Source of the DNA: a virus
IMG/VR virus record: IMGVR_UViG_3300042197_001058
Span: 19,597-83,596 of that record
Direction: 5' to 3' (one strand)
DNA: 64,000 nt
Below the pieces are notes generated by a model. The model worked only from the letters and a program-made list of their open reading frames with translations, searched no databases and had not been told where the DNA came from. Below, piece after piece: positions 4,258-50,561 of this stretch. Numbering within the stretch: the stretch's first letter is position 1; each line of letters begins with the position of its first letter. Position numbers and translations under genes: made by a program.

Positions 4258-4263
4258 ACGCTT

Positions 4264-4605: not shown

Positions 4606-4883
4606 TAGAAATCTTCTCCATAATAGCCATAATCCTCGTCTGTCCCAAATCCAGCATCTCGCATGGCACTGTCGAAATCTCCATCCATACTATCATCGAC
4701 ATCATCATTCCAAACATCTTCTTCCTCGTTCTCATAATCATCATCAGTATGAGTAGAAATCTCATGATCCGCATCCGGATGATAGTTACTACTATCCTCG
4801 TCAAAGTAATCGTTATAATAGTCGTAATTCATATCATCCTCATAAGAGTTATCAGGATCAAAAAGGGGATCTGGGTGACTCAT
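4605..4883 (-). CDS. Extremely acidic protein, possible DNA mimic (92 aa)
   Basis: By my count 26 Asp and 9 Glu in 92 residues, one Arg and no Lys, with Tyr spaced among the acids (YEDDMNYDYYNDYFDED). Proteins of this composition in phages often mimic DNA and block restriction enzymes, nucleoid proteins or repressors; that role here is inference only. Low-complexity spacing could equally mean a disordered chaperone-like peptide. AAAGGAAC precedes the ATG. The gene is coupled to the downstream acidic protein gene (4402-4605). Confidence 0.75.
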   Translation of the reverse strand: MSHPDPLFDPDNSYEDDMNYDYYNDYFDEDSSNYHPDADHEISTHTDDDYENEEEDVWNDDVDDSMDGDFDSAMRDAGFGTDEDYGYYGEDF

Positions 4884-10828: not shown

Positions 10829-10925
10829 TCATTTTACGTGATACTGGGCTGAAATGTCGAAAAACCTCCCGGTGGTATAAACATAGTAAGCGACCCCTAT
10901 ATAAATTGGCCAGTTTATTAGCCAT
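10829..10925 (-). pseudogene. Frameshifted micropeptide downstream of subtilase
   Basis: An ATG overlaps the subtilase stop (TAATG). The frame opens MANKLANLYR, then runs on wrongly through element M. Removing one G from the run of four (10894-10897 on the plus strand) gives MANKLANLYR-VAYYVYTTGR-FFDISAQYHVK and a stop 8 nt before element M, the usual spacing for genes of the array. The ending resembles the micropeptide at 5529-5627. A true mutation or a homopolymer sequencing error are both possible. Confidence 0.35.
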
Positions 10926-12190
10926 TATATTATTCTTCTGATTCTTTTGGTAGCTATCATTTTTAGTTCACCAGTATCTTTATTTTCCGCAAATATCTTT
11001 ACTTCATTCCATCCTCGATTAAACATTTTACGACTTAATCGAATATCGAACCCATGACGCCTATCTCCGTAGTTAACTAGGTTACTACGATACTGATTAG
11101 CATCGACAACCACAACGCTACGATTATTTATAACTACTTTAACTCTTACTCTGTCATTAACATGATCAGTATCAACCGCCCATCCTCTAACTCTATTAAT
11201 ATTGAATATATCCGTTCGCCCCACAATCCTTTCATCCCAGCTCTTCACCACAATCGGAGGAGCAGGAGGACTAGGAAGAGTTGGAGGATTTACTACAACA
11301 GTAACATTTGAAGATAAAGCTCCTGTAATATTAAGCGATCCACCAGTATACACTTTATCAGTTAGGTATATACTTTTCGTAACAGTAGAAAAGATTCTTT
11401 CTTTTATTTCTGCTACACTCAAATTTCCATACTTATTACATATGGCCGCTACCGCACCAGCAACTTGAGGAGCTGCCATACTCGTACCACTCAAGTATCC
11501 ATACTGGTTACCTGGTAATGTAGAATATATAGCAGTTCCTTTAGCCCCCAAATCTACACTATTTTTCCCATAATTAGAAAATCCCGCCAAAGTCTGATTG
11601 TCATATCCTACAGCAGCAACTGCTATAATATTAGGCACATCATAACCGCTAGGATATCTTGGAGTTAGATCATTATCAGAAGCATTATTGCCAGCAGCGG
11701 ATACAAATACTATATTAGCATCATTAGCTAGTTGAATAGCTCTTTCTAACATAAATGAAGTTCCCGTAGTTCCTCCCCAACTAGCATTGATAGCTACTAT
11801 ATCTAATCCAAATGTTTTTTTCATCATTATAACATAATTTATAGCAGAGATAGCAGCCCCTGTAAATCCTAATCCACTATCATCTTGAAATTTTAAAGCC
11901 ATCAAAGAGACTGGACCATAACTTGCCACTATTCCGGCCACATGAGTACCATGACCGTACCCATCCTGCACAATATTAGTATTATTGGCAAAATTCCATC
12001 CATGAATATCATCTATATAACCATTATTATCATCATCAATATTATTATTTGCTAATTCATTAGGATTATTCCAAATATATTGCTGTAGTGCTTGATGATT
12101 AAGATCTATGCCACTGTCAATAATAGCCACAATAGGAGTTAATAAAGATCTAGTCTCTAACGATTCTACACACAATCCATGCTTTTTCAT
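10925..12190 (-). CDS. Subtilisin-like serine protease (S8), secreted type
   Basis: 421 residues. Catalytic triad visible: Asp25 (AIIDSGIDL), His80 (GHGTHVAG) and Ser237 (SGTSMAAP), with oxyanion Asn168 (SAAGN). There is no pro-domain; the catalytic core starts right after MKKHGLCVESLETRSLLTP, whose LExRxLL motif is the N-terminal signature of many exported planctomycete proteins. A Pro-rich linker (about 305-320) leads to a C-terminal beta domain with RGWAVDTD and HGFDIRL. It may act on host surface proteins during entry or release, or on phage proteins; that is inference. AAAGGAC before the ATG, promoter at 12232-12259. Confidence 0.92.
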   Translation of the reverse strand: MKKHGLCVESLETRSLLTPIVAIIDSGIDLNHQALQQYIWNNPNELANNNIDDDNNGYIDDIHGWNFANNTNIVQDGYGHGTHVAGIVASYGPVSLMALKFQDDSGLGFTGAAISAINYVIMMKKTFGLDIVAINASWGGTTGTSFMLERAIQLANDANIVFVSAAGNNASDNDLTPRYPSGYDVPNIIAVAAVGYDNQTLAGFSNYGKNSVDLGAKGTAIYSTLPGNQYGYLSGTSMAAPQVAGAVAAICNKYGNLSVAEIKERIFSTVTKSIYLTDKVYTGGSLNITGALSSNVTVVVNPPTLPSPPAPPIVVKSWDERIVGRTDIFNINRVRGWAVDTDHVNDRVRVKVVINNRSVVVVDANQYRSNLVNYGDRRHGFDIRLSRKMFNRGWNEVKIFAENKDTGELKMIATKRIRRII

Positions 12191-13953: not shown

Positions 13954-14124
13954 ATGAACAATCTAGATTTTTCTCAATTAAATATGGCCAATTCCACATT
14001 AAAGGTTTGTGCATCAGGCTCAATATGTGATGTATCATCCGATATGAATTGTCCAGAAACTAAAACCATAGCGCAATTACTACATGAAGAAAAAGAAACT
14101 ACAAATACCAAACCAACTACCTAA
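13954..14124 (+). CDS. Hypothetical small protein (56 aa)
   Basis: Begins MNNLDFSQLNMANSTLKVCA, contains three cysteines (C19, C25, C33) and ends in a Thr-rich polar tail. Not recognised. AAGGAA lies before the ATG, and the promoter at 13890-13920 is 33 nt upstream. It overlaps the sigma-factor gene by 41 nt, so both belong to one transcript. It may be an anti-sigma or co-regulator by position only. Confidence 0.65.
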   Translation: MNNLDFSQLNMANSTLKVCASGSICDVSSDMNCPETKTIAQLLHEEKETTNTKPTT

Positions 14125-14749
14125 TGGAGTATCCACAGAAGAGTTTTTATTAGTTTTAGATAATATCAGCAAAAGATTAGCTAATAAGTTTAGATTCGCA
14201 TATCACAGCACAGAGGATATGAAACAGCAAGCTGCTATTTTTGCTTTGGAAGGCCTTCAAAATTACGACAAAAAAAGACCGTTGGAAAACTTTTTATGGA
14301 CACACGTTAGGAATAGGTTATTTAACTATAAACGTAACAACTATCAAAGGCCCGATAAGCCTTGTCATACTTGTCCTTTTTATGATAAATTATGCAAAAA
14401 TTCTACTAATCAATGTTCACAATTTACCAATAAGCAAGATTGTGTACCATATGCAGCATGGGCTAAGCGTAATGAAATTAAAAAGAATATTATACAACCA
14501 TCATATATAGAAAATAATTTTAATTCCGCAGAAAGTCACACAAACTTAGATTCTTTAGTAGCCAATAATGAACTAATACAATTTTTAGACGCTAATATTC
14601 AATCAGAATACAGAGAAACATATTTAAAATTAAAGCATGGAGCTAAAGTACCCAAAGCGGACCTAACAAAATTACAAGCTCACATTTTTAAGCTAATGGA
14701 GGACAACAATTGGAAAAAAGAATCATTCCAAAAAAACGAGGACAACTAA
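14084..14749 (+). CDS. Phage sigma factor, gp55-like, with Cys cluster
   Basis: 221 residues. Residues about 30-88 match sigma region 2: RLANKFRFAYHSTEDMKQQA, GLQNYDKKRP, then HVRNRLFNYKRNN. The style is that of the T4 late sigma factor gp55 and of other phage-encoded sigmas. It is followed by an unusual cysteine module (Cys94, 97, 104, 111, 120) that could bind zinc, then a poorly conserved tail. It should direct host RNA polymerase to late promoters. It stands at the head of the packaging/structural block, as expected. Confidence 0.8.
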   Translation: MKKKKLQIPNQLPNGVSTEEFLLVLDNISKRLANKFRFAYHSTEDMKQQAAIFALEGLQNYDKKRPLENFLWTHVRNRLFNYKRNNYQRPDKPCHTCPFYDKLCKNSTNQCSQFTNKQDCVPYAAWAKRNEIKKNIIQPSYIENNFNSAESHTNLDSLVANNELIQFLDANIQSEYRETYLKLKHGAKVPKADLTKLQAHIFKLMEDNNWKKESFQKNEDN

Positions 14750-15531
14750 GCTTAGATGAAGAGAAATATATTCGTGAGAATTTTCAGTCCTTAACTTTGC
14801 AGCAAATAGCAGATAACATTAATCGTAATGTTGATCCTGTACGACGATATGCAGAAGAAAATAATCTAGCAATTATAGCAGATCATAGTGAAAATGATAT
14901 CTTAAAACAAAAACTGCATACCAAAACCTTTTGGCTAGAAATCAAGCGTCAGTTTGATGCTGATAGCGGAGAACTTCAATATTTTGAGGATACATGGGTA
15001 GGTTTAATAAAACAGTTCCGAGAAGACGTTTTACCAGCAGAAGAATTACAGATTAAACAATTTATAACCATAGATATTCTTATTAATCGTTCTATGAAAG
15101 AACGCAAAAGACATATTAGCGAAACTGAAAAATTACAAAAGCTTGTAGATGCCGAATACCTTAAGCCCGAAGACCAAAGAGATATTCCCAAACTAGCAAA
15201 TATGGAAACTCAATTAAGCTTTGCTAGAAATAGCATAGCGAACTATACTAATGAGTATACCAAGCTTCTTAACGAACAGCAAAAAATAAGTAAAGACCTC
15301 AAAGCTACCAGAGAGCAACGTATCAAAAGAATCGAGGACGGCAAAAGCTCTTGGGTCGGTCTTATACGAATGTTGGAAGACGAAGAAACTAGAGAACGTG
15401 AAGGACGAGAAATGGAAATTTTAGCTATGGCCACAGATAAGGTTAGGGCTAAATTAAGTGAATATCATACTTATCAGGACGGAGTAGTAGACCAACCCCT
15501 ATTAACACCAGAAAGCGTACATAATGACTAA
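14710..15531 (+). CDS. Probable terminase small subunit (HTH plus coiled coil)
   Basis: 273 residues from a TTG start with GGAGG 7 nt upstream; no in-frame ATG is available, because a stop lies just before. Residues 13-52 form a helix-turn-helix (LSLDEEKYIRENFQSLTLQQ, IADNINRNVDPVRRYAEE), the rest is mostly charged coiled coil. A DNA-binding N-terminus, oligomerising middle and position before the large terminase fit a small terminase, though the family match is not certain and a different late regulator is possible. Overlaps the sigma gene by 40 nt. Confidence 0.65.
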   Translation: MEKRIIPKKRGQLSLDEEKYIRENFQSLTLQQIADNINRNVDPVRRYAEENNLAIIADHSENDILKQKLHTKTFWLEIKRQFDADSGELQYFEDTWVGLIKQFREDVLPAEELQIKQFITIDILINRSMKERKRHISETEKLQKLVDAEYLKPEDQRDIPKLANMETQLSFARNSIANYTNEYTKLLNEQQKISKDLKATREQRIKRIEDGKSSWVGLIRMLEDEETREREGREMEILAMATDKVRAKLSEYHTYQDGVVDQPLLTPESVHND

Positions 15532-16510
15532 AACAGCACTTATTACCGGAGTCACAGGACAGGACGGATCTTATCTAGCAGAGTTATTACTATCTAGAAA
15601 TTATAATGTAGTCGGATTATATAGACGCAGTAGTTCATTGAATTTTGATAGAATTTCTCATATTTCATCTCCTCAATTTTCTGTTGACGAATTTGATTTA
15701 ACAGACCCTAGTGATATAGCATCTATTATTGATAAATATAGGCCGGACGAACTTTATAATCTTGCGGCTCAAAGTCATGTAGGAACTAGTTTTAAACAGC
15801 CTACTACCACATTCGAAATAGATACTGTTGGAGTTATTAATCTATTAGAAAATATTCGTAGATTTTCTCCTGGTACTAGATTCTATCAAGCCAGCACCAG
15901 CGAAATGTTTGGAGCTAATTATACCTTAAAAAATAATGATAAATATCAGAATGAAGACACAATGTTTTTGCCTCAAAGTCCTTATGCGGTAGCCAAAATG
16001 GCTAGTCATCGTATGGTACAAATTTATAGAGAAGCCTATAACTTATATGCTTGTTCGGGCATTTTGTTTAATCATGAAAGTCCACGACGAGGCGAAAATT
16101 TTGTTACTAGAAAAATTACATGCTATATTGGTAAACTGATCAATAAAGTTATCAGTCCAGACACTAAGCTTAAATTAGGCAATTTAGAAGCTAGTAGAGA
16201 CTGGGGTCATGCCAAAGATTATGTTTATGGTATGTATTTAATGCTACAACAAAATGTTGCAGATGATTTTGTACTAAGTACTGGAGAGACCTATACCGTA
16301 CAAAATTTCCTAGAAAAAGCTTTCGATCTCGTTGGTTTAGATTGGACAAATCATGTGATGATAGATCCAGAATTATATAGACCATGCGAGGTTAATTATC
16401 TCAAAGGAGATAGTTCTAAAGCTCGATCACATCTAGGATGGGTACCAACAGTTTCTTTTGAGAGTTTAGTTAGAGATATGGTTAATAGTGATATTAATAA
16501 ATATGCGTAA
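15524..16510 (+). CDS. gmd: GDP-mannose 4,6-dehydratase
   Basis: 328 residues, an extended short-chain dehydrogenase that turns GDP-D-mannose into GDP-4-keto-6-deoxymannose. Signature motifs in order: ALITGVTGQDGSYLAELLL (NADP site), STSEMFG, SPYAVAKMASHRMVQIYREAY (Tyr/Lys), NHESPRRGENFVTRKIT, RDWGHAKDYV. Some phages and algal viruses carry this gene to supply fucose-type sugars for virion or host glycans. Its partner enzyme is the synthase on the minus strand (12585-13533). It overlaps the preceding gene by 8 nt and the HNH gene by a few nt. Confidence 0.95.
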   Translation: MTKTALITGVTGQDGSYLAELLLSRNYNVVGLYRRSSSLNFDRISHISSPQFSVDEFDLTDPSDIASIIDKYRPDELYNLAAQSHVGTSFKQPTTTFEIDTVGVINLLENIRRFSPGTRFYQASTSEMFGANYTLKNNDKYQNEDTMFLPQSPYAVAKMASHRMVQIYREAYNLYACSGILFNHESPRRGENFVTRKITCYIGKLINKVISPDTKLKLGNLEASRDWGHAKDYVYGMYLMLQQNVADDFVLSTGETYTVQNFLEKAFDLVGLDWTNHVMIDPELYRPCEVNYLKGDSSKARSHLGWVPTVSFESLVRDMVNSDINKYA

Positions 16511-35507: not shown

Positions 35508-38500
35508 ATGGCACAGGCTTTTAACTTAACAGCACAACTTAATCTTAGAGGACCATCTAATGTTAAGAAGATTGTTGCTGATATTAGACGAGATCTTGGA
35601 ACGATTAATGCTAATGTGCAGTTTCGTCTAGATCCAACAGCTGTTAGAAATACATCAGCACTTAATTCTGCTTTACGTAATCTTAATACTACATTAGGAT
35701 CCACTACAACTAATGCTACCAATGCTGCTAGAGCCATTAGATCATTTGGTTCCGCTATTAATAGCGTAAATATCAAAAATGTGCCTCAACAAATTAACGC
35801 TACAGTTGCTAGTATCAATAAATTAAATAGTACAGCGGCAAATAGCGGCAATAGTCTAGCTGGCGCTACAACAGAGATGCAAGAATTCGGTAAACAGGCT
35901 TATCTGGCTGTTCGTAGATTTGCTGCATTTACCGGTGTCACTAGTGTTATTTTCGGTGTTACTAATGCCATTACATCAGGTATTCAAGCTTTTATTGAAT
36001 ATGACAAACAATTTGTAAAACTACAACAAGTCACAGGTCAATCTGCCGCAGGACTAAAAGGATTGTCTGATACTATAACTGGTCTGTCTACAGGACTAGG
36101 TGTTGCTTCATCTGATATTACAGAGGTAGCTTCAACATTAGCACAGGCTGGTTTAAGTGCTAGAGATACAGAAAAAGCACTTAAGGCTCTGGCACTAAGT
36201 TCTTTGACTCCATCTTTCGATGATATGAATCAAACTGTAGAAGGCAGTATTGCATTAATGAGACAGTTTGGTATTAGCGCAGGAGATTTAGAAAAAGCCC
36301 TAGGCTCAGTTAATTCAGTAGCAGCTCAGTTTGCAGTAGAGTCTAGTGATATTATTACTGCTATTCAGCGTACTGGTGGTGTGTTTGCCGCTGCCAGTAA
36401 AGGAGTGTCTGAAGGAACAGATGCGCTAAATGAATTTATTTCTGTATTTACTAGTGTACGAGCTACTACTCGTGAAAGCGCAGAGACTATTGCTACAGGC
36501 TTAAGAACCATTTTTACTCGTTTACAACGAGGAGCTACAATAAATGCTCTTAAGCAATTCGGAGTAGATCTTACAGATGCAGAGGGTAAATTCGTAGGAG
36601 CCTATAAGGCTGTAGAACTATTGTCTAGTGGACTTAGTAAGCTAGATCCTAGAGATTTGAAATTCTCACAAATTGTAGAAGAATTAGGTGGTTTTAGACA
36701 GATTGGTAAGGTTATTCCTCTTATTCAACAATTCACAACTGCACAAGAAGCCTTAAAAGTAGCACAAAGAGGCCAAGGATCGTTAGCCTTGGATGCTGCT
36801 AAAGCACAAGAATCTTTAGCTAATAAAATTACTAAAGTAAAAGAAGAATTTTTTGCTTTGTTTAGAGAGATTGGTAATTCAAAAGGTTTTCAAACTATGA
36901 TACGAGGAGCACTAGATTTAACTAGTGCTATGATTAAAGTTGCAGATAGTATTAAAGGTATTATTCCGGTTTTAGGAGTTTTAGGAGCATTTAAAGGAGC
37001 GTCCGCTCTGACACAATTTACTGCTGGATTTATTGGAGGGTTCGGCAAAAAACAAAAAGTAAATTCTGGTGGATATATCAAGAAATTTGCTCGCGGTGGT
37101 GTGGTACCAGGAGTAGGAGATGGCGATACTGTTCCAGCTATGTTAGAACCCGGAGAGTTTGTGATTAGAAAAAAAGCTGTTCAAGCTATAGGAATGAATA
37201 GATTGCATAGAATGAACAAATATGCTGGAGGAGGAAAAGTTTCTATTAAAAAACTATCTGAATCTAGTAAAGGCGGATCATTTATAAAGAAAGCACAAAG
37301 AGATAATTCAGATATTATTCAGTATGCTGACGAGGTATTTGCTACCGAAAAAAGACAAAAAATTTCACTATCAGAAGCCGACAAAAAATACTTATTTAAG
37401 CAAAGTCTTAATCCCAATCGATTCAAGCCTGGAGAAAAAAGATTTAAAGGAAGCATAGAGAATCTAAATAAAAATGTTTGGGGAACAGCTTTTGAAAATT
37501 TAATGACTAAAAGATTAGGTAAACAATGGAAAACTACTAGTTCCAATAAAGATTATGGAGGTAGTTATCCTTTAGATTTATATAGTAGTGATGGAGATTT
37601 TGCAGAAGTTAAGTTTACAGATAGACCAGTTAGTTATCAACATATATTAAGTAAAAAATTAAGACATAAATTATTACAACCTAAAAATACATGGAAATTT
37701 ACTCAGAAAAGAGATGCTGGCCCTAGAGCTATTGACTTAGGAGAAGCATTAGTTTATGAGACTGATGAGGTAGAGAAACGAAAATTTATAGAACAATTTA
37801 AAGCAGGACAATTAGAGGCTAAAAGATCTCGACAGAAATTTGCTGTAGGAGGCTCGGTACAGAGACGGGTTGGGTATATAGATTATGATGTTATAGCTAA
37901 TGAAGCTAATAAAAATATTGTTGAAGCCGGGATGAAATCTTCTGGTACTACTGGCCCTAGATTATATGCTGATTATTTAACTCAATTAGCTGTTAGATCG
38001 CGTAAAGCTAATAGTTTAAACAAACTAAGCGCAGTTTATGGGGTAGCTGGTTCTGGAAAAACTACATTAGCTCGCGGACAAGGTACAGACAAAGGGAAAT
38101 TAAGACAAACAGAAAGATTTCCTATCTTAAGTCCTGAAGATGTTTCAAAAGCTACCGAAGTTTTGATATTGAGTAGCAGTGTTTCTAAGTCTAAAATGGA
38201 TGACTACTTATCTAGCGTAGATAGAGCATATACGTTGAGTAGTACTACTTCAGCAGAAAGAGAACGAGTAAGATCTCAGAGAAGTGCTAGAGATACTACT
38301 GGAGTTGGATTAGAAGGACGTAAGCCTGGAACTACTACAGGGGTATCAGCAGACACTGCTGTAGGAGAGGCTTTACTAGGAGATGCATTAGGTAAAAAAT
38401 CTGTAGTTCTTGGTAGATCAACTTCTGGTAGACTAAGACGTAAAAAAGGAAATGAATTAGTAGAAACCATAAAGAAAAAAATAGGTTTCACTTGGGGTAG

Positions 38501-41500
38501 TTTTTCTCCAATGACAGCTGGCCATGAAAGTATTATGGATGCCGCGGCTGCTATGGGTATTCCGCCAGAAGATTTTCTATATTTAGTCGGATCTAATGAA
38601 GGTATTAAAAGTGGTGATCCATCTAGTTATAGAACAGCAGTATTTGATCAAGACTTTAGAGTTATGTTGGCTAAAGCTGGTGCTGGTACTAGGGGAGCTA
38701 GAGTATTGCCTAAGCCTAGAGATTTTGAAGTACCACAAGCGTTTGATATTACAGATCCTGGTAGTGGCCGTCGTAAAGTACTATTGCCCCAAAAGGGAAG
38801 CAAAGCTTTCGTAGCAGATAAGACAGCAGAACAAACAGAAAAATATAAAGCCGCAGGATACGGAGTAGCCAATATAGAAAGAACTGGTGGTATTAGTGGT
38901 ACTATGGTCAGAGATCTTATTCTTTCTGGTCAAACAGGAAAATTAAAAGAAGTCTTGTCTCCTGGTGTTTATGGTATTATACTTAAAAATTTAAGTAAAT
39001 TACAAAATAGATCTAATGTATTACCAGAAATTATATCAGAATCACAAAAAACAGAAGCTGTATCTTTACAAGATATTGATAAAGAAATAGATAAGTTAGG
39101 AATTAAGAGAATAGATACTAAACGAGCACAGACAGATCCGGAATATGCCACCCAAGTAGAAGCACTACAAGAACTAAGAGCAAAAAAACAAAAGATTAAA
39201 AGCATAGGATCATTTAGGCCGTATGAGATATTAGCTAGATTAGCACAAGCAGAACCAGACAAATATGCATTAGATTTTACTGATGTTCAACGTAAAAATT
39301 TAGGCGGCTTTATTCAAAAATTATCTGTTGGAGGTTTCGCCGAAGTAGCGTCCAAAGGCAGATCCGAACTATTGGGATTAGCTTCTAAGTATGGTATCGC
39401 TAAGCCAGTTAATATATATGATATATTAGGTAAAAGAGCAAGTAGTAAAACCCCATTATCCTCTTTAGAGTCAGCTACTAAACAGTCTTTTATACAGTCT
39501 ATTGTTGATGCTATGTCTAGTGAGCAACAGTCAGCGGCAGTAGATAGTGCTATCGCACAAAATAGAAAAATAGCAGTTGTTGGAATATCAGGAGAACGAT
39601 CATCTTCAGAAGTTAAGACTGTTGGCGCTACAGATAAAGAAACCGGAGCTTCTGTAAGAGCGGTTCCTGCCACACTACAAACAGGATCACTGCCTCCTGG
39701 AGTAGCTAAAAGAGTACAAGCACTAATTCGTAATAATGTAGAAAGATTAGTGAATGATGTTGGCAGACAGATAGCAAAAGCCGCAGGCACCTCTATACAA
39801 CCTAATCGTAAAACTTTGCGTAATATAGCCGGTAAAGATTTAGAAGATATAGCCGGATCTATTTTTGAAAAAGGCTTAGGACTAGCTAGTGGCAATTACG
39901 ATCCTTCATCAAGTTCTATAGACTTTTTAGGAGGTCTTAGTAGTCCAGTTGCTTCATTACTAGGTGTTGATCCTGGTGTTATGACAGACGTAACTAATAT
40001 GGCTTCTATGGATAATGCTAAAAGGAAAGTAACAAAAGGTCAATTTGATAGAGGCCGATTAGAAGCACGAAAAAAACTTGGTCGTTCACAATTTGCAGAA
40101 GGAGGCTTAGTACAAAGATTTAAATTAGGCGGATCAGTCTATGATCTGCAAAAAGGAAGTGGATTATCCAACCCAGAATTTAATGAGTTGGTAAAATTTG
40201 CTAATACTAATGATTTTAGTATGGATGAGTTTAAAACTTATTTAGCACAAAGCATTCAGAGAAAGAAAAATAAAGCAGGACTAAGAATGAATCCTGCTAG
40301 TCTATTAAGCGCTATTACTCCTGAAACTCCTAGAGCTACTGCTAATCAATTAGCACTAGCTAATATGCTCAAAGGACCAGTAGATGCTAAATTTAATCCA
40401 AAATATGACAATTCTATCAAGTATGCTGTAGGAGGAAGTGTTGAGGATACTGTACCAGCATTATTAACTCCTGGCGAATTTGTTATAAATAAAAAAGCAG
40501 CACAACGAATAGGATCTGCTAGACTACATACATTAAATAGAGCAGATAAAATTCAAGGATTTAATAAAGGAGGTGTTGTTCAGCGTTTTGCTAAGGGTGG
40601 AACACCAGAAAAAATGGCTGAGGCTGTTGGATCTTTTGATCCGGTATCGGCAAAAACGGAGAAAGCATTAGAGGCTGCTGTAGAACAGTTGATGGATAAA
40701 ATAATTAAAGATATTATAGCTATCAATCCTTCGGTAGGTTTTGATACCGCATATGCTCAGGCAAAAGATCAAGTTACGCAAGCAGACTTTACAACTATGA
40801 GAGCTGCTGAAACAGGAGATCAAAAAGCAGCTAATTCTGTTGCTGACGCTCAAAGGAAACAAGCATTAGCTATAGCTAAACAAATTCGATCCATAGATAA
40901 TAGTATATCTATGCAAGAAGCACTATCTGCGGCGGAAAGACAGGTTGCAGATGCTTGGGGTGGTTTATATAGACGAACAAAAACAGCTGAACAAAGCTCA
41001 TCTTTATTATCTAGAGCTATGGACAATACCAGAGCAGCTATGAATAAAGCTCAAATGGCTATGTCTAAGCTTGATCAATCAGGTTTTAGTAGGGGAATGA
41101 GAGGTGTGGTTGGTGGTAACGTTGGCTTTTACGGTAGTATGGCAGTTGGTATGTTAGCTGGTCAAGGTGAAAGCTTTTTTGGTAAGAAAGATGCTAATAT
41201 TAATAATGCATCAAGAGTTGCAGCATTCGAGGCCGGAACATCTACCGTTGCCACAGGATTAGCAACGGCCAGCTCTTTAACGGCTATACCAGGGGTTGGT
41301 CCATTCATAGCAGCGATGGTACTAGGTGTTACTGCTATAAAAGCATGGACCGATGGAGTCAAAGCTGCTACAGAAGCCGCTTTGGAATTTGCATTAAGAG
41401 AGTCTAATAGAAAAGCAGAAAATTCTGCTGAAGCATTAGGGAAGGCTTTGGATAATTTATCTAAAGATGTAAATAATGTTGATTTACAAAATTTGGTTAA

Positions 41501-44500
41501 GACTAGATTACAAGAAAATATTAAAGATAATAGTGAAGTATTTAATGATCAATTTGCTGATACTCGCAATAAAGTTATAGAGCGTACAAAATCAGAAAGA
41601 ACTTTGATGGAGTGGGCTGGAGAATCTAGTTTTATTGCCCCTTTGTTAGGATATGGAGATACTACATTTAAGCCAGAGTCAATTAACAGTTTTTCTTTAA
41701 CTGGTAAAGATTATGAGACTATGGCCAAAGATATGGCTCCAAAATATCAAGAAGCCAATAGAGCAGCAATGATGAGTATTGAACGTGCTCTTCGTTCTGG
41801 GGTTGCTTTAAGCGGTCAAGAAGGAAAAGATTTAGCAACAGCACCAGAATATGCTAATGAAAGAATGGCTATAATAGGATCTGATAGACAAGCATTAGAA
41901 AAAATACTACCTTTAATGGCCAGAGAGGAAGAATTACGAAAATCAGGCAATGAAGCAGCCGCTGACGAAGTTAAAGCAAATAGAGAAGCTATTATTTCTG
42001 AGATGATTAAAAACAATGCTTCTATCCAAGCCGCTAAAAAATCTATAGAATTAGCTAAAGCAATGGAAGAGGCTAATAGGGCTGGTAGACAACTAGCTCT
42101 TAGCTTTAATCAATTATATGATACTATTGGTCAATCTATTAATAGAATACAATTTGAGTCCAAAGCTAGACAACAAGCTGCTCAATCTAGTGTGAATGCT
42201 CTTAGAGGAAATGCTAGTATTGAACAGCTTGATTCAAAAGCTATTAATGTATTAGAAAATCCACTAGCCTATAAAAATGATCCTAAAGCGTTTAGAGAAG
42301 CAGCTGATAGTGCTGCGAATATGCTAGGTGGCAAACAAGGTCAAATGCTACGAGGAGCCGCTATAGCTTCTGTGGAACTTCCTGATAAAATGACCAATGC
42401 TATTGCTCAAGAACTTAAGGGTAATGCTGGATTAAGTCCAGAAGAGGCTGCTAAGATCGCTATCACAAAAGGTACAGAAGAGATAAAAAGTCTTAATTTA
42501 CCACCAGAAATTACTAATCAATTAATAAAACAATTAGAAGGCAATATTAAGTCTAGTCAACAGCAACTTAGTAAGGATATGGAAGAGTCAGGAGGTAATC
42601 CTCAAGAAGCCTTAGATAAGTTTATAGAATCTATTAGAGATACAAGCAAGTCTTTAGGAGAAATTGGAGCGCGAGCAGTATCAGAATCAGCAGCTCTACT
42701 AAAAGAAAGACAAAGAGCATTTAATCAATTCATCGAAAATGTTCAAGAAGCAGCAAAAGCAGCTAAATTAGCTGAAAATTATTTTAAGAGCGCTGATAAG
42801 ATTAGATATCGCGGAAAGATGGATCTTAGAGAAGCACAAACTGGTGTGGGAGAAAGCTTTGAAGAAGCCAAGGCTAGATTTGATCAAGAAGTAGGAGATC
42901 TAACAGGTGGTATTACCGATCCAACAGCTATTCGTCAAAATATACAAAATCTAGAACAACAAAGACAACAACAGCAAGAGGATCTTAAAAAAGCTAATGA
43001 TGCCGGAGATGTTGACGAAGCCAAAAAACTAACGACAAATTTAACTGCTACTAATACTGCTCTTAATAATAATAGAGAAGCATTAGATAAATTAGCAGAT
43101 AGTGCTGAGTTGGCACAAAAAGCTTTAGATGAAGTTAAGAATATCAAAGGATTACAACAAGGTCGTGAAGACTTTGTGAATAAGTTATTAACTGGTACGC
43201 CTGAAGAGATGGAAAATCTTAATAAGGCAATGATTAGATTACAAAGAAATCTATCTGGTGGATTAAATAATCCGGATAACCAGAGAGATGCGCGTAAAGC
43301 ATTTAATGAAACATTACGACGCACAGGTAGTGTCAGAGAAGCTTCCAAAGCAGGTAATACTGTATTAGCCAACCAGCGTAAAGAAACATTAGGACTAATG
43401 CAAGATCCTGGTTTTAGAGCTATGCTCACATTAAATATGAAGAATCAGGGCATGTCTGATCAGCAAATTGATCAAAGATTTAGACAGCAAGAAGCTACTC
43501 TTATGAGGCAAATGGCCGTAGAGAGTGGAATGAGTCGCAATCCTATGGTTCAACAAGCAATAGCAGCCAAATTAGATCCTAATGCCGATCCTGCTATGAA
43601 AAGAGCTGCTGAGCAGTTTTTACAAACTGTTGGCTTACAAGCTAAAGCCACAGAAGAACAAGGCCGTTTAGAACTAGCTAATGCTCAAAGATTGCTAACT
43701 ACTGCTACTGATGATTTAAATTTAAGTATTAAAAACTTAACTGATACTATTAATGCTAATATGGGCTTAGATGGCAAAGTAGCTAATGCTAAACAAAATG
43801 CTGCTGGTCAAGAGATGGTAGCTTTAAACTTTGGATTGCCTAGACCATCTCAACCTATGAGAGCTTCTAAGGGAGCTTTAGTTGATTTTTCTCCTAGAGG
43901 ATCAGATACTGTACCAGCAATGTTGACTCCTGGAGAATTTGTAGTTAATGCAAGATCTACAGCACAACATCTGCCATTATTAAAGTCTATTAATAGTGGA
44001 TCTAATATAGTGCCAACAATTATGAGAAAGGGAGGATTGGTTTACTTAAGTCGTGGAGGATGGTTAGCCAATTCGCTTAGAAAGGATAAAACTTTAGATC
44101 AAGACCAAACCTTTTTTGATCAGAGAGTAACAGAAGCTAATCAAGCATACTTAACAGGAGGAGGTAAAGAAGCTCTTAAACAACAGTTAGATGCTGCTGA
44201 GAGCGCTGCCGGTAACGCTGATCGCGAATATTCGTTCCTGTCTTCTGATGCCACAACACCAGAACAAGCAGCTAATGATTATGTGATGAATCAAGATAGG
44301 ATAGAATGGCTTAATATGTCTCCAGAAGAAAGACAAGCGAAGGTCGCACCATTTATGGATCAGGCTCGCTCTGCCTTTAATACTAAACAAACATGGAGAT
44401 ATGGAGCAGACCCCGATAATCTTGGAGCAGGAGCACTATCTCAAGAACAAATAGATAAAAATATTCAGGATCGTCGAGAACAGTCTATTAAAGCATCTAA

Positions 44501-47500
44501 TCAGGCTTACTCTTTAAGAAAACAATATGAAGAGCGAGAAGCTAAGGGTATGGACTATAGAACTCCTAGTCAACAATTAGAAGCAGATAAATTAAGTGTT
44601 AGACGAAGCTTGGAAGAAGATAGACAAATAGCTACCGGAGAAAAAACACTAACGCCAGAAGACATGGAAGTTAGACGAGCAGCTAGCGGGCGCGCAGATG
44701 GTATTGCTACAGAAGAACAAGTAGATAGTTATATTCGCCAAAGAAGAGATCAAGCAGAAGCAGCAGCAAAAGCAGCAGATACAGAAATGGGGGCTCGTAG
44801 ACTAAATAATACTAGAGAATTAGTTGATCAGAGATTCAATTTTGCTTTTAATCAAGGTATGGGCAAAACATATACTACTAGAGATGGTGCTACTTATATA
44901 GCTGATCCTACTGGTATGTTTAGGGACAAATCTGGTAAGAAAATAGACGGAAGTATTAGGGCCGAACAGATCTATAAGGATCCATCTGATATCAACAAAT
45001 ACGAATCATCTGCTTATAATTTAGAGGCTATGAGATTCGGTAATGAAGGTCCTTATAAGAATATAGGTTACTCAGAAAGAAGAACAACAAGACCAATTTC
45101 GATAGACGGTATTCCTGGAGCAGAGGAAGTTACCACAACTAGTGCTATGAATTTGTCTCTCTCTCCAGCATCTCCTATTGCTAGAAACGAAGCAGCAATA
45201 AATGCTCATATGGAGGAGGCTCGACCTATTGTACGAGCTATGAATACTCCTATGACTGATAGAGATAGAAGAAGACTAGCATCCAGTATGAGGAGTCAAG
45301 GAGCATCTAACGAACAAATTAATCAAACTCTTGCTACAATACCTGTTATGCGTGGACCTAGAAATATGGCAGAAGTTGGTATGTATAGAGAAGGCGTGGC
45401 TCGTGGTATGACTATTGATGAGATTGCTTTTGAAAGACAACAGGCTTATCTAAATAGATATAATCCTAAAATTAGAGAAGGTTTAGAAAATGAACTTTTA
45501 AGTTCAGGAACGCTACGAGAACCGTCACAAAGACAACGAGCATCAATCCTAGAAATTATACAACAAATTCAATCTGTTTTAGATAGTGGTCAAAATACAT
45601 CAAGCTACTCTGATGCACAACTACAGAATGCATTAAGAATCTTAATGAGTATCGTAGCAGCTAAAGCGGAACGTAATAGAATCTGGGGAATAGATTCTTT
45701 AAAATCTGATACTGTATATGCTAGTACGGGTAAATTAATAGATTTTGCTCCTAAAGGAACTGACACGGTTCCAGCGATGTTGACTCCCGGAGAATTCGTT
45801 GTTAATGCTAGATCTACTGCTCAACACCTACCACTATTGAAGGCTATTAATAGTGGATCTGATGCTATGGTATCAAAAACCATGAGTAAGGGCGGTGTGG
45901 TTTATTTGGCTAGTGGTGGACAACCAAAGAAAGAGGAGCAGGTAGCTAACAATGGGGTTTCTCCAGCAGATCAACAAGAGTTAGTTAGACTACAAAATGA
46001 AAGGATTGCAGCAGATCAAGAACAGATGTTTATTACCAATGGGGCTATGGTAGACACATCTGCTAGACAATGGACAGAAGAACAATTTGGATCTAAATGG
46101 AGCAGTATGACGGAGGAGCAACAGAATGCTGAGACACAGAAGAATTTACCTAGATTTCAACAACTAGACCAGGATTACACAGCGAGAAGAGACGCTTATG
46201 TTGCTGAAAAAGGAAAAGCAGATGAAGCTACGGGTTTATGGAGTAGTGATAGATTTACTAGTGAACATCGACTTAGTTTTTTCAGACAAGAGAGAGACAG
46301 ATCACAAGCCGCTTATGCAGCGGCATCACAGGCAGAGTATGATCAACAGACAAAAATGCGAGAAGCTAGTAAAGATGAAAAGTCATCGACTACTATGCCT
46401 CCGACTGCGGATGGATCTAGGCCAGCCACTATGCCTCAATATGCCCCAACCAGCTCATCAGAATCTGCGACAGCACTATCTCGCACATCAATAGCATCTA
46501 GAGACGCAGCCAGAAGATCATTAGCAAATATTCCCCAGGCACAAAGAACACCAGATCAACAGAATAGATATTTACAGCTAAAGTATGAAGATGATTTAGC
46601 TAAAGGTAGAATTTCTAGTAGTATTACTGCGGATCAGTTTGTAGAACAAGAAAAACAAAAACAATACGCAAGAGACGATAAGCGTTTCGACGTATTGTCT
46701 AAAAAAGACCCTGATTCGTTGTCTCAAGCCGATTCTGATTTTCTATTCGATTATGAAACACAGCAACGAGACAGACGAAAAGCAGTTATTGCCGAAGTTA
46801 AACAAAGAGAAGAAGCATTCGGTAAAACTTTATCTGACGCTGAAAGAGCAGCAGAGAATAATACCAAGACCCTAGATCGTGCAAAAACCACAGCAGAAGC
46901 TTATAAAACCAGTGTACAATACGGCATTGATCAAAAGAACCTATCAAAGATAGAAGAACAAAGACAGACCGCCCAATTTGAGAATTTCTTGTCTACTAAT
47001 ATGGAAGCAGGAATCAAAGATACTGCTGCTTTAGGTAAATTCTGGGCAGAACAACAGGAGGGAGTAGTTAAACAAGAAGAAAAAGATCGACTTGCCCTTA
47101 AGTACGAAAAAGATGCTAGTGAATTCATTAAGAAGAATACTGATGCTAAAACCGGTGAGTTTAATGAAGAATTTAAGCAACAAAGACAAGCACAAAAAGA
47201 TGAAGCTAAAAAACGAGACACAACTGTCGCCGCCCTGATCAATGAGGACTTTGGTCAACAGCTAGGAGCTGCTCAAAAAGATATTAACGATAAAGTATTT
47301 ACCTTTGTTGATCCTGTAGATTCACGACTTTCCGAAGATAATATAACACAGATTAAGAATCAGGCAGCGGCTTATAGACAAGCGGCAGATAACTTGGCTG
47401 GTATCAAAAATGTAGATAGTACCAAAACTATTGAGGAATATAGAAACCAAGCAGCTAAACTAGAAGAAAGAGCAGCATCGTTTACTAGTAGTACAAAAAC

Positions 47501-50500
47501 ACAAGCAGCACTAGATCAGACCAAGGGTTCTATTGTACGATCTAACGAGTCACTAGCATCAACAGTTAGACAAAATACTCTAAATGCCGCAATGGCTGAT
47601 AAGAGTATTGATAAATACGCATCAGATAAAGATGCTGCTGCCAAAGCTGAAGCTCAAGCCGCAGCGGCTCAACAAGCAGCAGAACAAAAAGCAGCACAAG
47701 CTAAAGCAGATGCGGAAAAGAGACAAGCAGAACAAGCTGCTGCGCAACAAGCTAAAGTAGCACAAGAAGCAAAAGCTAAGCAAGATAGTTTATGGATTAA
47801 TAGTAGCAATCCATTGACGGCTGGTCTAGGTTATCTGGGTGGGTTGGGTCAAGCCACCGGAGAAATGGCTTATGGTGCTGCTAATGTTGTGGCCGGTGCA
47901 GCTACAGTTGCTGCTAGTCCGGTTATTGGATATTTCGCTGGCAACAGTGCAGAAGAAGTTGCCAGAGGAGAAAAATTAGCAGCTCAAACCAGAGCTATTC
48001 AAGAAAAACAAGCAGCTATGGGAGTATTGGGACCACAGGGATCAGACCAAAATGCTGCTTTAGCACAAGCTCAAGCATCAGATTATAAAGGAGAATCATC
48101 AACAGCAGCGGCAGCTTCTGTAGGACTTAACGCCATGGCACAAGGAGCATATACAGCCGTTGAAGCGGCTCAGGCCGTAGCCGGTCAAGGCCCAATTATG
48201 ACGGGAGATAAAACATGGTTACATCAAGGCGATGATGAAAGAGTACAGCAAGCAGGACCATATGGCGGAGCTACTAGATTTTTTCAAAATACAGGCTATG
48301 TTGCTAGTCAACTAGCTCCTGCCGTAGCAGGCTTAACTAATCCAGCTCCTGGTGCTGGAATTTTAGAAAAATCAGCAAGAGCATTTAGCGCACTAGATAA
48401 TTTAGCTACTTCTCCTGGAACAGTAACCAGCTTCGCTGGTAAAGCACTAGGTTCTATAGGTAATAGAGTCACAGGAGGAAGACTGTCCTCTTTCACCGCC
48501 CCGGTATCTGATATGCTATCTTCTGGTCTGGGATTCATTAGAGGTAAAGCTGCTAAAGGTGTTAAATCTATGGCAGATACGGACTTTGGGAAAGATATGA
48601 TTGGAACATTTAATGCTGTAAAAGATAGTGTATTTTTACGAGGACCAGCTAGGGCAGATATCGATGTAGCCTATGGTAATATTGGATCTATTGACGACTA
48701 TTTTGATAGTGCTCGTAAATCTATTGCTGGAGGCAAGCTATCTCCCGAAGCAGCTATGAAATATCACCGTAAAGAAATTTTAGAAAAAGCCATGAAGATG
48801 AGAGAAGCAGATATGGCTAAAGCTAAAATGTATTCACAGCTAACAGGAGGAGATCCTACCAAAGTATCAGAAGTTCTGAGATCTCAAAAAGGTATCAGAG
48901 GACTAGGAACAAAAGAAGACCCGTTTACTGTACCACCAAGATCAGGTCAGGTGGTATCAGACTCCTCAACTAAAGCACAACTAGACTCTATGAGACAGCC
49001 AGGAGGAGTAAACTACAATCCACCGACAGGTACTGTTGGGGATCCGTTTTTTGCTACCGGTAAAGTAGACAGTGTTGCTTCTTCTACTAATCCTACACGA
49101 AGTAGTGCAAAAACATCATCTGATGATTTAGTAGATCCACTACAAGCCAACGCTGCTAGAGCTAGGGCTAAAGAAGCAGCAGAATCGGCAGAGACACAAA
49201 AGAAAGCAACTAGAGCGGCGGAATCAGCTAAAACAGCCAAAAAAGAAGCTGAACAAAGAGCCGAATCAATAGCTAAACAAAAGTCATTAGATGAGCAAAG
49301 AATCAAAGCAGAACAATTAAAACAACAACAAGCATCAGAAGCAAAACAGAGAGCAGAAGCAGCTACAAAACAAAAACAAATTGAAGAAGCACAATTAAAA
49401 CAAGCACAAGAGAATAAATTAAAACAACAACAAGAAGCATCTGCTGCTAAGGCTAAAGAGCAGGCGCAAATCAATGCTAGTAGTTCATCTCCTAAACAGG
49501 AAAATAGAACAAGAGAATCTCTAATATCACAATTATCAGAAAAGCAAGCTACTATATATGATATAGTTGGAGCTAAAGCAGGACAGTCTATTAGTCCTGA
49601 TGATGTTAGAACATTACAACGACAAGGCAGTAAGTGGTTACATCCAGATTTACCTTCTAATAGGGAACTAGATCCTAGTTTACAGACAAAATTGAATAAG
49701 ATCATAGAATTGGCTTCTGATCCAGCTGCTTTAGAACGATATAATTTGGGACTTAAAATGGGATATACTCACGACGATCTGATGGAAGCCTGGATCAGAG
49801 GAACTAAGTTTAGTAAAAAAACACTCAAACGAAGAAGACCAGACATTAATCCTTCTCCAGCAGCTAAAATGAATAAGGGAGGTATAGTTTATGCTAATAA
49901 TGGAGCCTTAATAGCTGCTAGACAAGGCACCGATACTGTTCCTGCTATGCTAACTCCGGGCGAATTTGTAGTCAATAGACAAGCCGCTCAACAACACATG
50001 CCAGTATTAAATGCTATTAATAATGGCTATTATAATCGTGGTGGTATTGTACAATATTTGGCTAATGGTGGTTTAGTTAGTCCTCCTAAATATTATCAAG
50101 AAGGAGGTCAAGTTACTAATACGGGCTCAGCTAATAGTGGTGTATCTACTGATATTGGGAATGCTATAAATGCTGCTATGGCTGGATTAAGCAATATTGT
50201 TGGCCAAATTTCACAAGTTAAAGAAGTAGCCTCCATGTTTAATGAAGCCATTGGTAATTTCGGTAGTATTGGACAAACCGTAGTAGATGGCATGACAGGA
50301 GCTTCATCAAATCTAGCTCAAGTTGGCACAGAGTTAAACCAGTTTGCACCAGAAGTTAAGTTTACCGGTAGAGTTGAAACAGACCATAGATTTAATGGTC
50401 TAGAAGCAGCAAATAATGTATTAAATACTCTAGGACCAACAATGGCTGAAAATACAAAAAATCAAATGAATAATGCTTTTCAAAGAGTAAATAAGGGTGT

Positions 50501-50561
50501 GGGTAATCTAGACGCTGGCGTATTTGGTCCAGATTCATCTAAAATAATGGGAATGGCATAA
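35508..50561 (+). CDS. Giant tape measure protein with embedded enzyme-like domains
   Basis: 5017 residues in one ORF of 15 kb. Residues about 120-520 are TP901-type tape measure sequence. Then, in order: a TPGEF-type repeat at 540; a PD-(D/E)XK nuclease-like segment (Asp690, Glu700, Lys702); a P-loop GVAGSGKT (845-852); a nucleotidyltransferase-like segment with SFSPMTAGH (998-1006) and ISGTMVR (1129-1135); further DTVPAxLxPGEFVxN repeats at 1647, 2800, 3419 and 4809; hydrophobic segments near 1870-1960 and 4100-4150; a J-domain-like segment with HPD at 4712-4714. Long Ala/Gln/Glu helices join these parts. At about 0.15 nm per residue the tail could be some 750 nm if all of it spans the tube. 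Confidence 0.93.
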   Translation: MAQAFNLTAQLNLRGPSNVKKIVADIRRDLGTINANVQFRLDPTAVRNTSALNSALRNLNTTLGSTTTNATNAARAIRSFGSAINSVNIKNVPQQINATVASINKLNSTAANSGNSLAGATTEMQEFGKQAYLAVRRFAAFTGVTSVIFGVTNAITSGIQAFIEYDKQFVKLQQVTGQSAAGLKGLSDTITGLSTGLGVASSDITEVASTLAQAGLSARDTEKALKALALSSLTPSFDDMNQTVEGSIALMRQFGISAGDLEKALGSVNSVAAQFAVESSDIITAIQRTGGVFAAASKGVSEGTDALNEFISVFTSVRATTRESAETIATGLRTIFTRLQRGATINALKQFGVDLTDAEGKFVGAYKAVELLSSGLSKLDPRDLKFSQIVEELGGFRQIGKVIPLIQQFTTAQEALKVAQRGQGSLALDAAKAQESLANKITKVKEEFFALFREIGNSKGFQTMIRGALDLTSAMIKVADSIKGIIPVLGVLGAFKGASALTQFTAGFIGGFGKKQKVNSGGYIKKFARGGVVPGVGDGDTVPAMLEPGEFVIRKKAVQAIGMNRLHRMNKYAGGGKVSIKKLSESSKGGSFIKKAQRDNSDIIQYADEVFATEKRQKISLSEADKKYLFKQSLNPNRFKPGEKRFKGSIENLNKNVWGTAFENLMTKRLGKQWKTTSSNKDYGGSYPLDLYSSDGDFAEVKFTDRPVSYQHILSKKLRHKLLQPKNTWKFTQKRDAGPRAIDLGEALVYETDEVEKRKFIEQFKAGQLEAKRSRQKFAVGGSVQRRVGYIDYDVIANEANKNIVEAGMKSSGTTGPRLYADYLTQLAVRSRKANSLNKLSAVYGVAGSGKTTLARGQGTDKGKLRQTERFPILSPEDVSKATEVLILSSSVSKSKMDDYLSSVDRAYTLSSTTSAERERVRSQRSARDTTGVGLEGRKPGTTTGVSADTAVGEALLGDALGKKSVVLGRSTSGRLRRKKGNELVETIKKKIGFTWGSFSPMTAGHESIMDAAAAMGIPPEDFLYLVGSNEGIKSGDPSSYRTAVFDQDFRVMLAKAGAGTRGARVLPKPRDFEVPQAFDITDPGSGRRKVLLPQKGSKAFVADKTAEQTEKYKAAGYGVANIERTGGISGTMVRDLILSGQTGKLKEVLSPGVYGIILKNLSKLQNRSNVLPEIISESQKTEAVSLQDIDKEIDKLGIKRIDTKRAQTDPEYATQVEALQELRAKKQKIKSIGSFRPYEILARLAQAEPDKYALDFTDVQRKNLGGFIQKLSVGGFAEVASKGRSELLGLASKYGIAKPVNIYDILGKRASSKTPLSSLESATKQSFIQSIVDAMSSEQQSAAVDSAIAQNRKIAVVGISGERSSSEVKTVGATDKETGASVRAVPATLQTGSLPPGVAKRVQALIRNNVERLVNDVGRQIAKAAGTSIQPNRKTLRNIAGKDLEDIAGSIFEKGLGLASGNYDPSSSSIDFLGGLSSPVASLLGVDPGVMTDVTNMASMDNAKRKVTKGQFDRGRLEARKKLGRSQFAEGGLVQRFKLGGSVYDLQKGSGLSNPEFNELVKFANTNDFSMDEFKTYLAQSIQRKKNKAGLRMNPASLLSAITPETPRATANQLALANMLKGPVDAKFNPKYDNSIKYAVGGSVEDTVPALLTPGEFVINKKAAQRIGSARLHTLNRADKIQGFNKGGVVQRFAKGGTPEKMAEAVGSFDPVSAKTEKALEAAVEQLMDKIIKDIIAINPSVGFDTAYAQAKDQVTQADFTTMRAAETGDQKAANSVADAQRKQALAIAKQIRSIDNSISMQEALSAAERQVADAWGGLYRRTKTAEQSSSLLSRAMDNTRAAMNKAQMAMSKLDQSGFSRGMRGVVGGNVGFYGSMAVGMLAGQGESFFGKKDANINNASRVAAFEAGTSTVATGLATASSLTAIPGVGPFIAAMVLGVTAIKAWTDGVKAATEAALEFALRESNRKAENSAEALGKALDNLSKDVNNVDLQNLVKTRLQENIKDNSEVFNDQFADTRNKVIERTKSERTLMEWAGESSFIAPLLGYGDTTFKPESINSFSLTGKDYETMAKDMAPKYQEANRAAMMSIERALRSGVALSGQEGKDLATAPEYANERMAIIGSDRQALEKILPLMAREEELRKSGNEAAADEVKANREAIISEMIKNNASIQAAKKSIELAKAMEEANRAGRQLALSFNQLYDTIGQSINRIQFESKARQQAAQSSVNALRGNASIEQLDSKAINVLENPLAYKNDPKAFREAADSAANMLGGKQGQMLRGAAIASVELPDKMTNAIAQELKGNAGLSPEEAAKIAITKGTEEIKSLNLPPEITNQLIKQLEGNIKSSQQQLSKDMEESGGNPQEALDKFIESIRDTSKSLGEIGARAVSESAALLKERQRAFNQFIENVQEAAKAAKLAENYFKSADKIRYRGKMDLREAQTGVGESFEEAKARFDQEVGDLTGGITDPTAIRQNIQNLEQQRQQQQEDLKKANDAGDVDEAKKLTTNLTATNTALNNNREALDKLADSAELAQKALDEVKNIKGLQQGREDFVNKLLTGTPEEMENLNKAMIRLQRNLSGGLNNPDNQRDARKAFNETLRRTGSVREASKAGNTVLANQRKETLGLMQDPGFRAMLTLNMKNQGMSDQQIDQRFRQQEATLMRQMAVESGMSRNPMVQQAIAAKLDPNADPAMKRAAEQFLQTVGLQAKATEEQGRLELANAQRLLTTATDDLNLSIKNLTDTINANMGLDGKVANAKQNAAGQEMVALNFGLPRPSQPMRASKGALVDFSPRGSDTVPAMLTPGEFVVNARSTAQHLPLLKSINSGSNIVPTIMRKGGLVYLSRGGWLANSLRKDKTLDQDQTFFDQRVTEANQAYLTGGGKEALKQQLDAAESAAGNADREYSFLSSDATTPEQAANDYVMNQDRIEWLNMSPEERQAKVAPFMDQARSAFNTKQTWRYGADPDNLGAGALSQEQIDKNIQDRREQSIKASNQAYSLRKQYEEREAKGMDYRTPSQQLEADKLSVRRSLEEDRQIATGEKTLTPEDMEVRRAASGRADGIATEEQVDSYIRQRRDQAEAAAKAADTEMGARRLNNTRELVDQRFNFAFNQGMGKTYTTRDGATYIADPTGMFRDKSGKKIDGSIRAEQIYKDPSDINKYESSAYNLEAMRFGNEGPYKNIGYSERRTTRPISIDGIPGAEEVTTTSAMNLSLSPASPIARNEAAINAHMEEARPIVRAMNTPMTDRDRRRLASSMRSQGASNEQINQTLATIPVMRGPRNMAEVGMYREGVARGMTIDEIAFERQQAYLNRYNPKIREGLENELLSSGTLREPSQRQRASILEIIQQIQSVLDSGQNTSSYSDAQLQNALRILMSIVAAKAERNRIWGIDSLKSDTVYASTGKLIDFAPKGTDTVPAMLTPGEFVVNARSTAQHLPLLKAINSGSDAMVSKTMSKGGVVYLASGGQPKKEEQVANNGVSPADQQELVRLQNERIAADQEQMFITNGAMVDTSARQWTEEQFGSKWSSMTEEQQNAETQKNLPRFQQLDQDYTARRDAYVAEKGKADEATGLWSSDRFTSEHRLSFFRQERDRSQAAYAAASQAEYDQQTKMREASKDEKSSTTMPPTADGSRPATMPQYAPTSSSESATALSRTSIASRDAARRSLANIPQAQRTPDQQNRYLQLKYEDDLAKGRISSSITADQFVEQEKQKQYARDDKRFDVLSKKDPDSLSQADSDFLFDYETQQRDRRKAVIAEVKQREEAFGKTLSDAERAAENNTKTLDRAKTTAEAYKTSVQYGIDQKNLSKIEEQRQTAQFENFLSTNMEAGIKDTAALGKFWAEQQEGVVKQEEKDRLALKYEKDASEFIKKNTDAKTGEFNEEFKQQRQAQKDEAKKRDTTVAALINEDFGQQLGAAQKDINDKVFTFVDPVDSRLSEDNITQIKNQAAAYRQAADNLAGIKNVDSTKTIEEYRNQAAKLEERAASFTSSTKTQAALDQTKGSIVRSNESLASTVRQNTLNAAMADKSIDKYASDKDAAAKAEAQAAAAQQAAEQKAAQAKADAEKRQAEQAAAQQAKVAQEAKAKQDSLWINSSNPLTAGLGYLGGLGQATGEMAYGAANVVAGAATVAASPVIGYFAGNSAEEVARGEKLAAQTRAIQEKQAAMGVLGPQGSDQNAALAQAQASDYKGESSTAAAASVGLNAMAQGAYTAVEAAQAVAGQGPIMTGDKTWLHQGDDERVQQAGPYGGATRFFQNTGYVASQLAPAVAGLTNPAPGAGILEKSARAFSALDNLATSPGTVTSFAGKALGSIGNRVTGGRLSSFTAPVSDMLSSGLGFIRGKAAKGVKSMADTDFGKDMIGTFNAVKDSVFLRGPARADIDVAYGNIGSIDDYFDSARKSIAGGKLSPEAAMKYHRKEILEKAMKMREADMAKAKMYSQLTGGDPTKVSEVLRSQKGIRGLGTKEDPFTVPPRSGQVVSDSSTKAQLDSMRQPGGVNYNPPTGTVGDPFFATGKVDSVASSTNPTRSSAKTSSDDLVDPLQANAARARAKEAAESAETQKKATRAAESAKTAKKEAEQRAESIAKQKSLDEQRIKAEQLKQQQASEAKQRAEAATKQKQIEEAQLKQAQENKLKQQQEASAAKAKEQAQINASSSSPKQENRTRESLISQLSEKQATIYDIVGAKAGQSISPDDVRTLQRQGSKWLHPDLPSNRELDPSLQTKLNKIIELASDPAALERYNLGLKMGYTHDDLMEAWIRGTKFSKKTLKRRRPDINPSPAAKMNKGGIVYANNGALIAARQGTDTVPAMLTPGEFVVNRQAAQQHMPVLNAINNGYYNRGGIVQYLANGGLVSPPKYYQEGGQVTNTGSANSGVSTDIGNAINAAMAGLSNIVGQISQVKEVASMFNEAIGNFGSIGQTVVDGMTGASSNLAQVGTELNQFAPEVKFTGRVETDHRFNGLEAANNVLNTLGPTMAENTKNQMNNAFQRVNKGVGNLDAGVFGPDSSKIMGMA

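Follow-up and report, generated by a model that had tools for sequence, protein, structure and literature searches.

A putative cargo bay of linker-delimited enzyme cassettes in the tape measure protein of a siphophage

Phage tape measure proteins (TMPs) fill the lumen of the tail and are believed to be ejected at infection. Activity is possible for an enzyme joined to such a protein, as with the RNA polymerase of Thermus phage P23-45 (PMC10770324) and the nuclease of Tme from Streptomyces davawensis (PMC11126660). In P23-45, the 5,002-residue TMP gp96 has an active virion RNA polymerase fused at its N-terminus, and this enzyme is proposed to act during DNA entry, as the TMP forms its pore (PMC10770324). 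Here, we describe a TMP encoded in a 64,000-nucleotide stretch (the window; bases 19597-83596 of the 83,596-base IMG/VR virus record IMGVR_UViG_3300042197_001058), in which residues ~577-1640 probably form a cargo bay of enzyme cassettes, split by short glycine-rich linkers and delivered at entry. Like gp96, it is a giant siphophage TMP with enzyme in its N-terminal quarter. Unlike it, the P23-45 protein has one RNA polymerase, and the accessible part of that report describes no nuclease, nucleotidyltransferase (NTase), ADP-ribosyltransferase, or interchangeable cassettes. Moreover, activity has been demonstrated for the P23-45 polymerase, whereas the window cassettes are known at the level of sequence and predicted structure.

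The polyvalent proteins (Iyer et al. 2017, PMC5512222) are similar in that one polypeptide carries multiple enzymes and is believed to be injected alongside the DNA, and their repertoire of ADP-ribosyltransferases, metallopeptidases, and nucleases overlaps with the one described below. Like them, the window protein combines several unlike enzyme domains in a single chain; however, the carrier is a TMP, its cassettes are bounded by GG/GEFV linkers, and tape measures go unmentioned in the text of PMC5512222. Among contractile injection systems (CIS), Tme is a TMP-related protein whose nuclease domain is an effector, and Sle1-type effectors (PMC13277306) join a TMP-like carrier to diverse exchangeable functional domains. 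In contrast to the window TMP, Tme has a single C-terminal EndA-type nuclease and belongs to a CIS rather than a phage (PMC11126660), while the Sle1-type domains are C-terminal, in bacterial CIS, and without an internal multi-cassette bay (PMC13277306). Our search of the open-access literature found no report of a phage TMP with cassettes of the nuclease, NTase, or ADP-ribosyltransferase type. What sets the window TMP apart from the P23-45 fusion and the polyvalent proteins is its linker-delimited, exchangeable multi-enzyme bay.

The TMP gene is a 5017-residue open reading frame at window positions 35508..50561, on the plus strand, as are all the TMP features that follow. Its identity is borne out both by homology and by a siphophage tail-gene position, as residues 1-559 match 47 phage records, with homology to annotated TMPs of SPbeta-like, Slash/Staley-like, Lactococcus WRP3, Gordonia, and Rhodococcus phages, and the same gene run holds a terminase, a portal, and a minor tail protein. 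For comparison, relatives (numbered with the prefix L) were gathered as 24 loci via the TMP N-terminus plus loci via the cassette, giving 27 distinct TMPs from uncultivated contigs, some of them partial. The bay is bounded by two GEFV/GG-linker motifs. At its left edge, linker 1 (residues 530-576; 37095..37235) runs from GGVVPGVGDGDTVPAMLEPGEFV to YAGGG and contains DTVPAMLEPGEFV, and DNA homology with L007 (84% identity) stops at residue 576, the two sequences being unrelated beyond. At its right edge, linker 2 (residues 1639-1698; 40422..40601) runs from YAVGGSVEDTVPALLTPGEFV to KGGVVQRFAKGG and contains DTVPALLTPGEFV, and here the TMP core homology with L007 restarts. The first-pass annotation of this DNA had read the segment as an interruption of the TMP, which agrees with what we observed in the relatives, where the same place holds other contents and, among the regions measured, varies from 405 residues (L027) to ~2,070 (L029).

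The linker motif DTVPA(M/L)LxPGEFV itself occurs in five copies in the TMP, at residues ~536, 1643, 2796, 3415, and 4805 (window positions ~37113, 40434, 43893, 45750, and 49920). The later TMP intervals 2860-3400 and 3475-4780 differ from L007 as well, and may be further bays.

The bay contains cassette 2 (residues 776-1258), which begins at the inter-cassette linker QKFAVGGSVQR (residues 776-786; 37833..37865). Its P-loop domain, cassette 2a (residues 784-984; 37857..38459), carries the Walker A motif GVAGSGKT at 845-852 (38040-38063), and its NTase domain, cassette 2b (residues 989-1167; 38472..39008), carries TAGH at 1003-1006 and ISGTMVR at 1129-1135. A long-helix extension, as given by AlphaFold2 secondary structure, follows at residues 1162-1248 (38991..39251), and the linker GGFIQKLSVGG (residues 1266-1276; 39303..39335) separates it from the next cassette. 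These motif positions had been reported exactly in the first-pass annotation, together with D690 and E700-V-K702 of cassette 1, and they are not chance matches. Thirteen sequences sharing 71 to 36% identity with the window were aligned, and all 13 keep T-x-G-H, I-S-x-T-x-x-R, and the glycines and lysine of Walker A without exception. A scan with the NTase profile turned up more contigs with these motifs. Coiled coil throughout, which that annotation had named as grounds for dropping its reading, is not what structure prediction gives, since AlphaFold models residues 776-1258 as a compact cassette (predicted local distance difference test, pLDDT, 85; predicted template modelling score 0.77).

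Superposition of the NTase half (residues 989-1167) on NadD (VIA) gave a Z of 13.9 and a root-mean-square deviation of 2.5 Å over 151 aligned residues, with CoaD and NMNAT structures ranking close behind. At the profile level, PF16581 is found in 11/13 members of the cassette set and PF01467 in 7/13, the window member falling under the curated cut-off, and TIGR00125 has a match in a homologue (E=1.4e-4). Profile matches in the PDB are 3gmi (UPF0348) and a 357-residue NMN adenylyltransferase chain (E=8e-4). On predicted fold and motifs alike, cassette 2b belongs to the HIGH-superfamily nucleotidyltransferases, as first proposed for it, and shares its fold and the (T/H)xGH and ISxTxxR motifs with NadR, NadM, CoaD, and TmcAL, though the long helical extension and a domain order the reverse of that in NadR set cassette 2 apart from the NadR type. 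For the P-loop half, the matches are one Foldseek hit to a zeta kinase (probability 0.96 at low TM) and a weak one to a GntK-type (gluconate-kinase-like) chain (E=0.026). Accordingly, of the "kinase" proposed originally, the conserved P-loop domain stands, but the kinase label is tentative, and the domain could be another P-loop NTPase.

Between relatives, the ratio of nonsynonymous to synonymous rates (dN/dS) in the P-loop/NTase cassette is 0.05-0.23. This is low, comparable to the 0.04-0.18 of the TMP N-terminus, and therefore indicates purifying selection on the cassette. Every cassette found by the NTase-profile scan sits inside a TMP, with no stand-alone gene among them, a pattern that speaks for a requirement of linkage to the TMP. 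A GTDB scan with the same profile likewise gave no free cassette, its only match being a citrate-lyase-ligase-like protein in a Bacillota metagenome-assembled genome, and a tblastn search with residues 560-1200 found no match among named phages.

Cassette 1 (residues 578-771; 37239..37820) is assigned to the PD-(D/E)XK type on its conserved residues and predicted fold order. Profile–profile alignment (hhalign) of the window and L023 with other relatives gave 93.8% for L018, 81.5% for L037, and E=2e-4 for L014/L016, and across the homologues so joined, E663, D690, and (E/D)700-x-K702 align. Its AlphaFold2 model (pLDDT 76.6) shows the order alpha-beta-beta-beta-alpha-beta. Both lines back the nuclease-like call made at first pass, and the loss of motif residues in homologues that could have spoken against it is not seen. 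A further module, cassette 3 (residues 1277-1527; 39336..40088), is homologous to the profile of a PD-(D/E)XK module termed "B" (hhalign 98.1%, E=1e-13), in which the residues E ... D ... (D/E)xK are kept in 17 relatives; a PDB profile search with the PD-B profile found no match. Instead of the ExK, cassette 3 has TDVTN or TDATN in the window, L007, L019, and L024, the window reading TDVTN...AKRK where TEVKR is expected. A lysine ~nine residues downstream of the altered motif could substitute. The active site of this cassette is altered, possibly inactive, and possibly one with a migrated lysine. The three motif sets recognized originally are all present, but this fourth module and the bay of interchangeable cassettes had been overlooked.

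The first slot of the bay, read from sequence in the 27 TMPs (by motif only in L017/L006, L022, and L027), is occupied by a PD-(D/E)XK-type domain in 12 cases and by a staphylococcal-nuclease-like domain in another 12, the remaining 3 having neither. Corresponding counts in the set obtained independently of the cassette, plus the window (n=18), are 9, 6, and 3, and 10/17 relatives found without a cassette query have the P-loop/NTase cassette. As to the staphylococcal-nuclease fold, the catalytic residues D, D, R, D, E, and R are invariant in 11/11 sequences, and the domain resembles thermonuclease (E=3e-8). Since one slot takes nucleases of two unrelated folds, selection would seem to act on nuclease activity and not on a particular fold. 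Moreover, ADP-ribosyltransferase cassettes score above the Pfam gathering threshold in L018 and L050, with no match in named phages. Several enzyme modules per TMP are the norm in this clade, and the three motif sets are not the oddity they had seemed.

Two other motifs recur in the relatives, and since Pfam scans of whole bays were nearly empty, both labels are motif-based. A HAD-phosphatase-like FDFD(K/D)TL (e.g. FDFDKTL) occurs at TMP residue 1720 in L016, 1650 in L017, 1458 in L004, 2089 in L006, and 1990 in L029, and in several TMPs it has the NTase cassette immediately on one side and the "B" module on the other. The three together are suggestive of a nucleic-acid end-processing set. HExxH metallopeptidase-like motifs are found at residues 2254 (L029), 2226 (L016), 1099 (L012), 1020 (L013), and 1080 (L036), and self-processing is a possible role for the corresponding cassettes.

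Comparison of the relatives' sequences indicates that related phages swap in-frame cassettes at the linkers. Counting unique cases, 57% of 130 ends of DNA-homology blocks in the bay lie <=10 residues from a GG-linker, against 12% expected from random placement (maximum 22% in 2000 trials), the ends from two members of one pair not being independent. Besides the break between the window and L007, the clearest individual cases are L012, which has one extra 427-residue cassette at a linker relative to L011 with flanks 83-89% identical, and the pair L017 and L006, in which the first cassette is 96% identical (dS 0.13) and the TMP N-terminus 77% (dS 1.19).

The folds, conserved active sites, purifying selection, and modular exchange are carried by sequence and predicted structure; delivery, activity, and substrates we infer, and we regard it as probable that the TMP also serves as a modular polyvalent effector that reaches the host at entry. 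Being part of the TMP would place a cassette in the virion, and a swappable enzyme bay means that the phage probably injects ready-made enzymes alongside its DNA. From known TMP biology, the protein would leave the tail tube for the envelope as DNA enters, and its cassettes would then be exposed to the host cytoplasm and could act there. On entry, the nuclease might cut host or competing nucleic acid, or disarm a nucleic-acid-based defence, and the exchange of one nuclease fold for an unrelated one in the first slot points towards a function required at a set stage of entry. The P-loop/NTase pair, in turn, could alter a nucleotide or an RNA end, with an NAD precursor and tRNA as candidates by homology.

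Several points weigh against delivery of active enzymes at entry. Pfam, PDB-sequence, and Foldseek searches gave no confident PDB or Pfam match for cassette 1, and its best fold match, to the PA-N endonucleases, has a modest Z of 5.4 and came from the VIA second look only; PA-N endonucleases themselves have the PD-(D/E)XK fold. The P-loop domain is unassigned among the known kinase families, the hints of a kinase being weak, cassette 3 departs from the canonical ExK, and the three of 27 relatives with neither nuclease type have no recognisable first-slot nuclease. Folded domains, moreover, may not fit the tail lumen unless they are unfolded or located at the tail ends.

Another explanation is that the cassettes work earlier, in the cell that makes the phage or in particle assembly, and are cut away or stay idle in the virion; the TMP gene would then be just a convenient carrier that is expressed late. 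The HExxH metallopeptidase-like cassettes of some relatives could process the TMP, and processing of this kind has been proposed for polyvalent proteins (PMC5512222), but that motif is not found in the window's TMP, and the confinement of the NTase cassettes to TMPs favours linkage to this protein; we consider this explanation improbable. Less probable still is that the domains have a purely structural, spacer role or are relics in decay, old enzyme genes captured in frame that now do no more than add length to the ruler or tune the release of DNA. The missing ExK lysine of cassette 3 and the wide range in bay length would suit such a role. Against it, however, catalytic residues are among the best-conserved positions at 35% identity, dN/dS is low, and both of the unrelated nuclease folds of the first slot keep their active-site residues. 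For the P-loop/NTase cassette, the invariance of its catalytic motifs in all relatives and its dN/dS, at about the level of the TMP N-terminus, argue against the relics that the first-pass annotation had allowed for.

A narrower form of delivery at entry would make the P-loop/NTase pair an injected NadR-like NAD-salvage enzyme, which might rebuild NAD against NAD-depleting defences or supply the ADP-ribosyltransferase cassettes. NadR is a HIGH NTase fused to a P-loop kinase (PMC7824862, PMC9503650), and the NMN adenylyltransferase profile match and the NadD/NadM folds point the same way. We nonetheless think this specific role unlikely, since the P-loop domain here precedes the NTase, opposite to NadR, and has no match to a riboside kinase, and since the NTase is like UPF0348/TmcAL-type enzymes (3gmi, PF16581) in its C-terminal half.

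If the TMP is indeed an effector delivered at entry, it may, somewhat more speculatively and with the chances slightly below even, be a general injection platform of this clade, whose linker-delimited bay shuffles entry-phase effectors as a polymorphic, virion-borne anti-defence arsenal. The usual order in such a platform would be the nuclease first, then the P-loop/NTase pair, ADP-ribosyltransferase, phosphatase, and peptidase. The platform would then correspond, on the phage side, to the TMP-like effectors of contractile injection systems, and it might represent the type of ancestor from which they came. The bay links TMP-fused virion RNA polymerases, polyvalent injected proteins, and TMP-derived CIS effectors, and it yields a concrete set of putatively injected enzymes with linkers marking the cut points. 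It also raises the physical question of how folded enzymes travel in a tail tube whose length is set by the same protein.

Near the TMP C-terminus, there is a J-domain-like stretch with an HPD motif (residues 4683-4746; 49554-49745; YDIVGA...WLHPDLP...SDPAALERYN), which we considered as a further module but set aside, as it has no Pfam match and L007 has HSD in place of HPD. Outside the TMP, the closest terminases to that of the window are those of Microcystis phage MaeS and Slash-like phages. The terminase gene comes shortly after a GDP-mannose 4,6-dehydratase gene (15524-16510, plus strand; PF16363, E=6e-114), and a candidate phage sigma factor is encoded at 14084-14749 (plus strand), with a weak match to sigma-70 region 2 (PF04542, E=9e-4, below gathering). 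On the opposite strand, a subtilase gene is located at 10925-12190 (minus strand; PF00082, E=2e-41).

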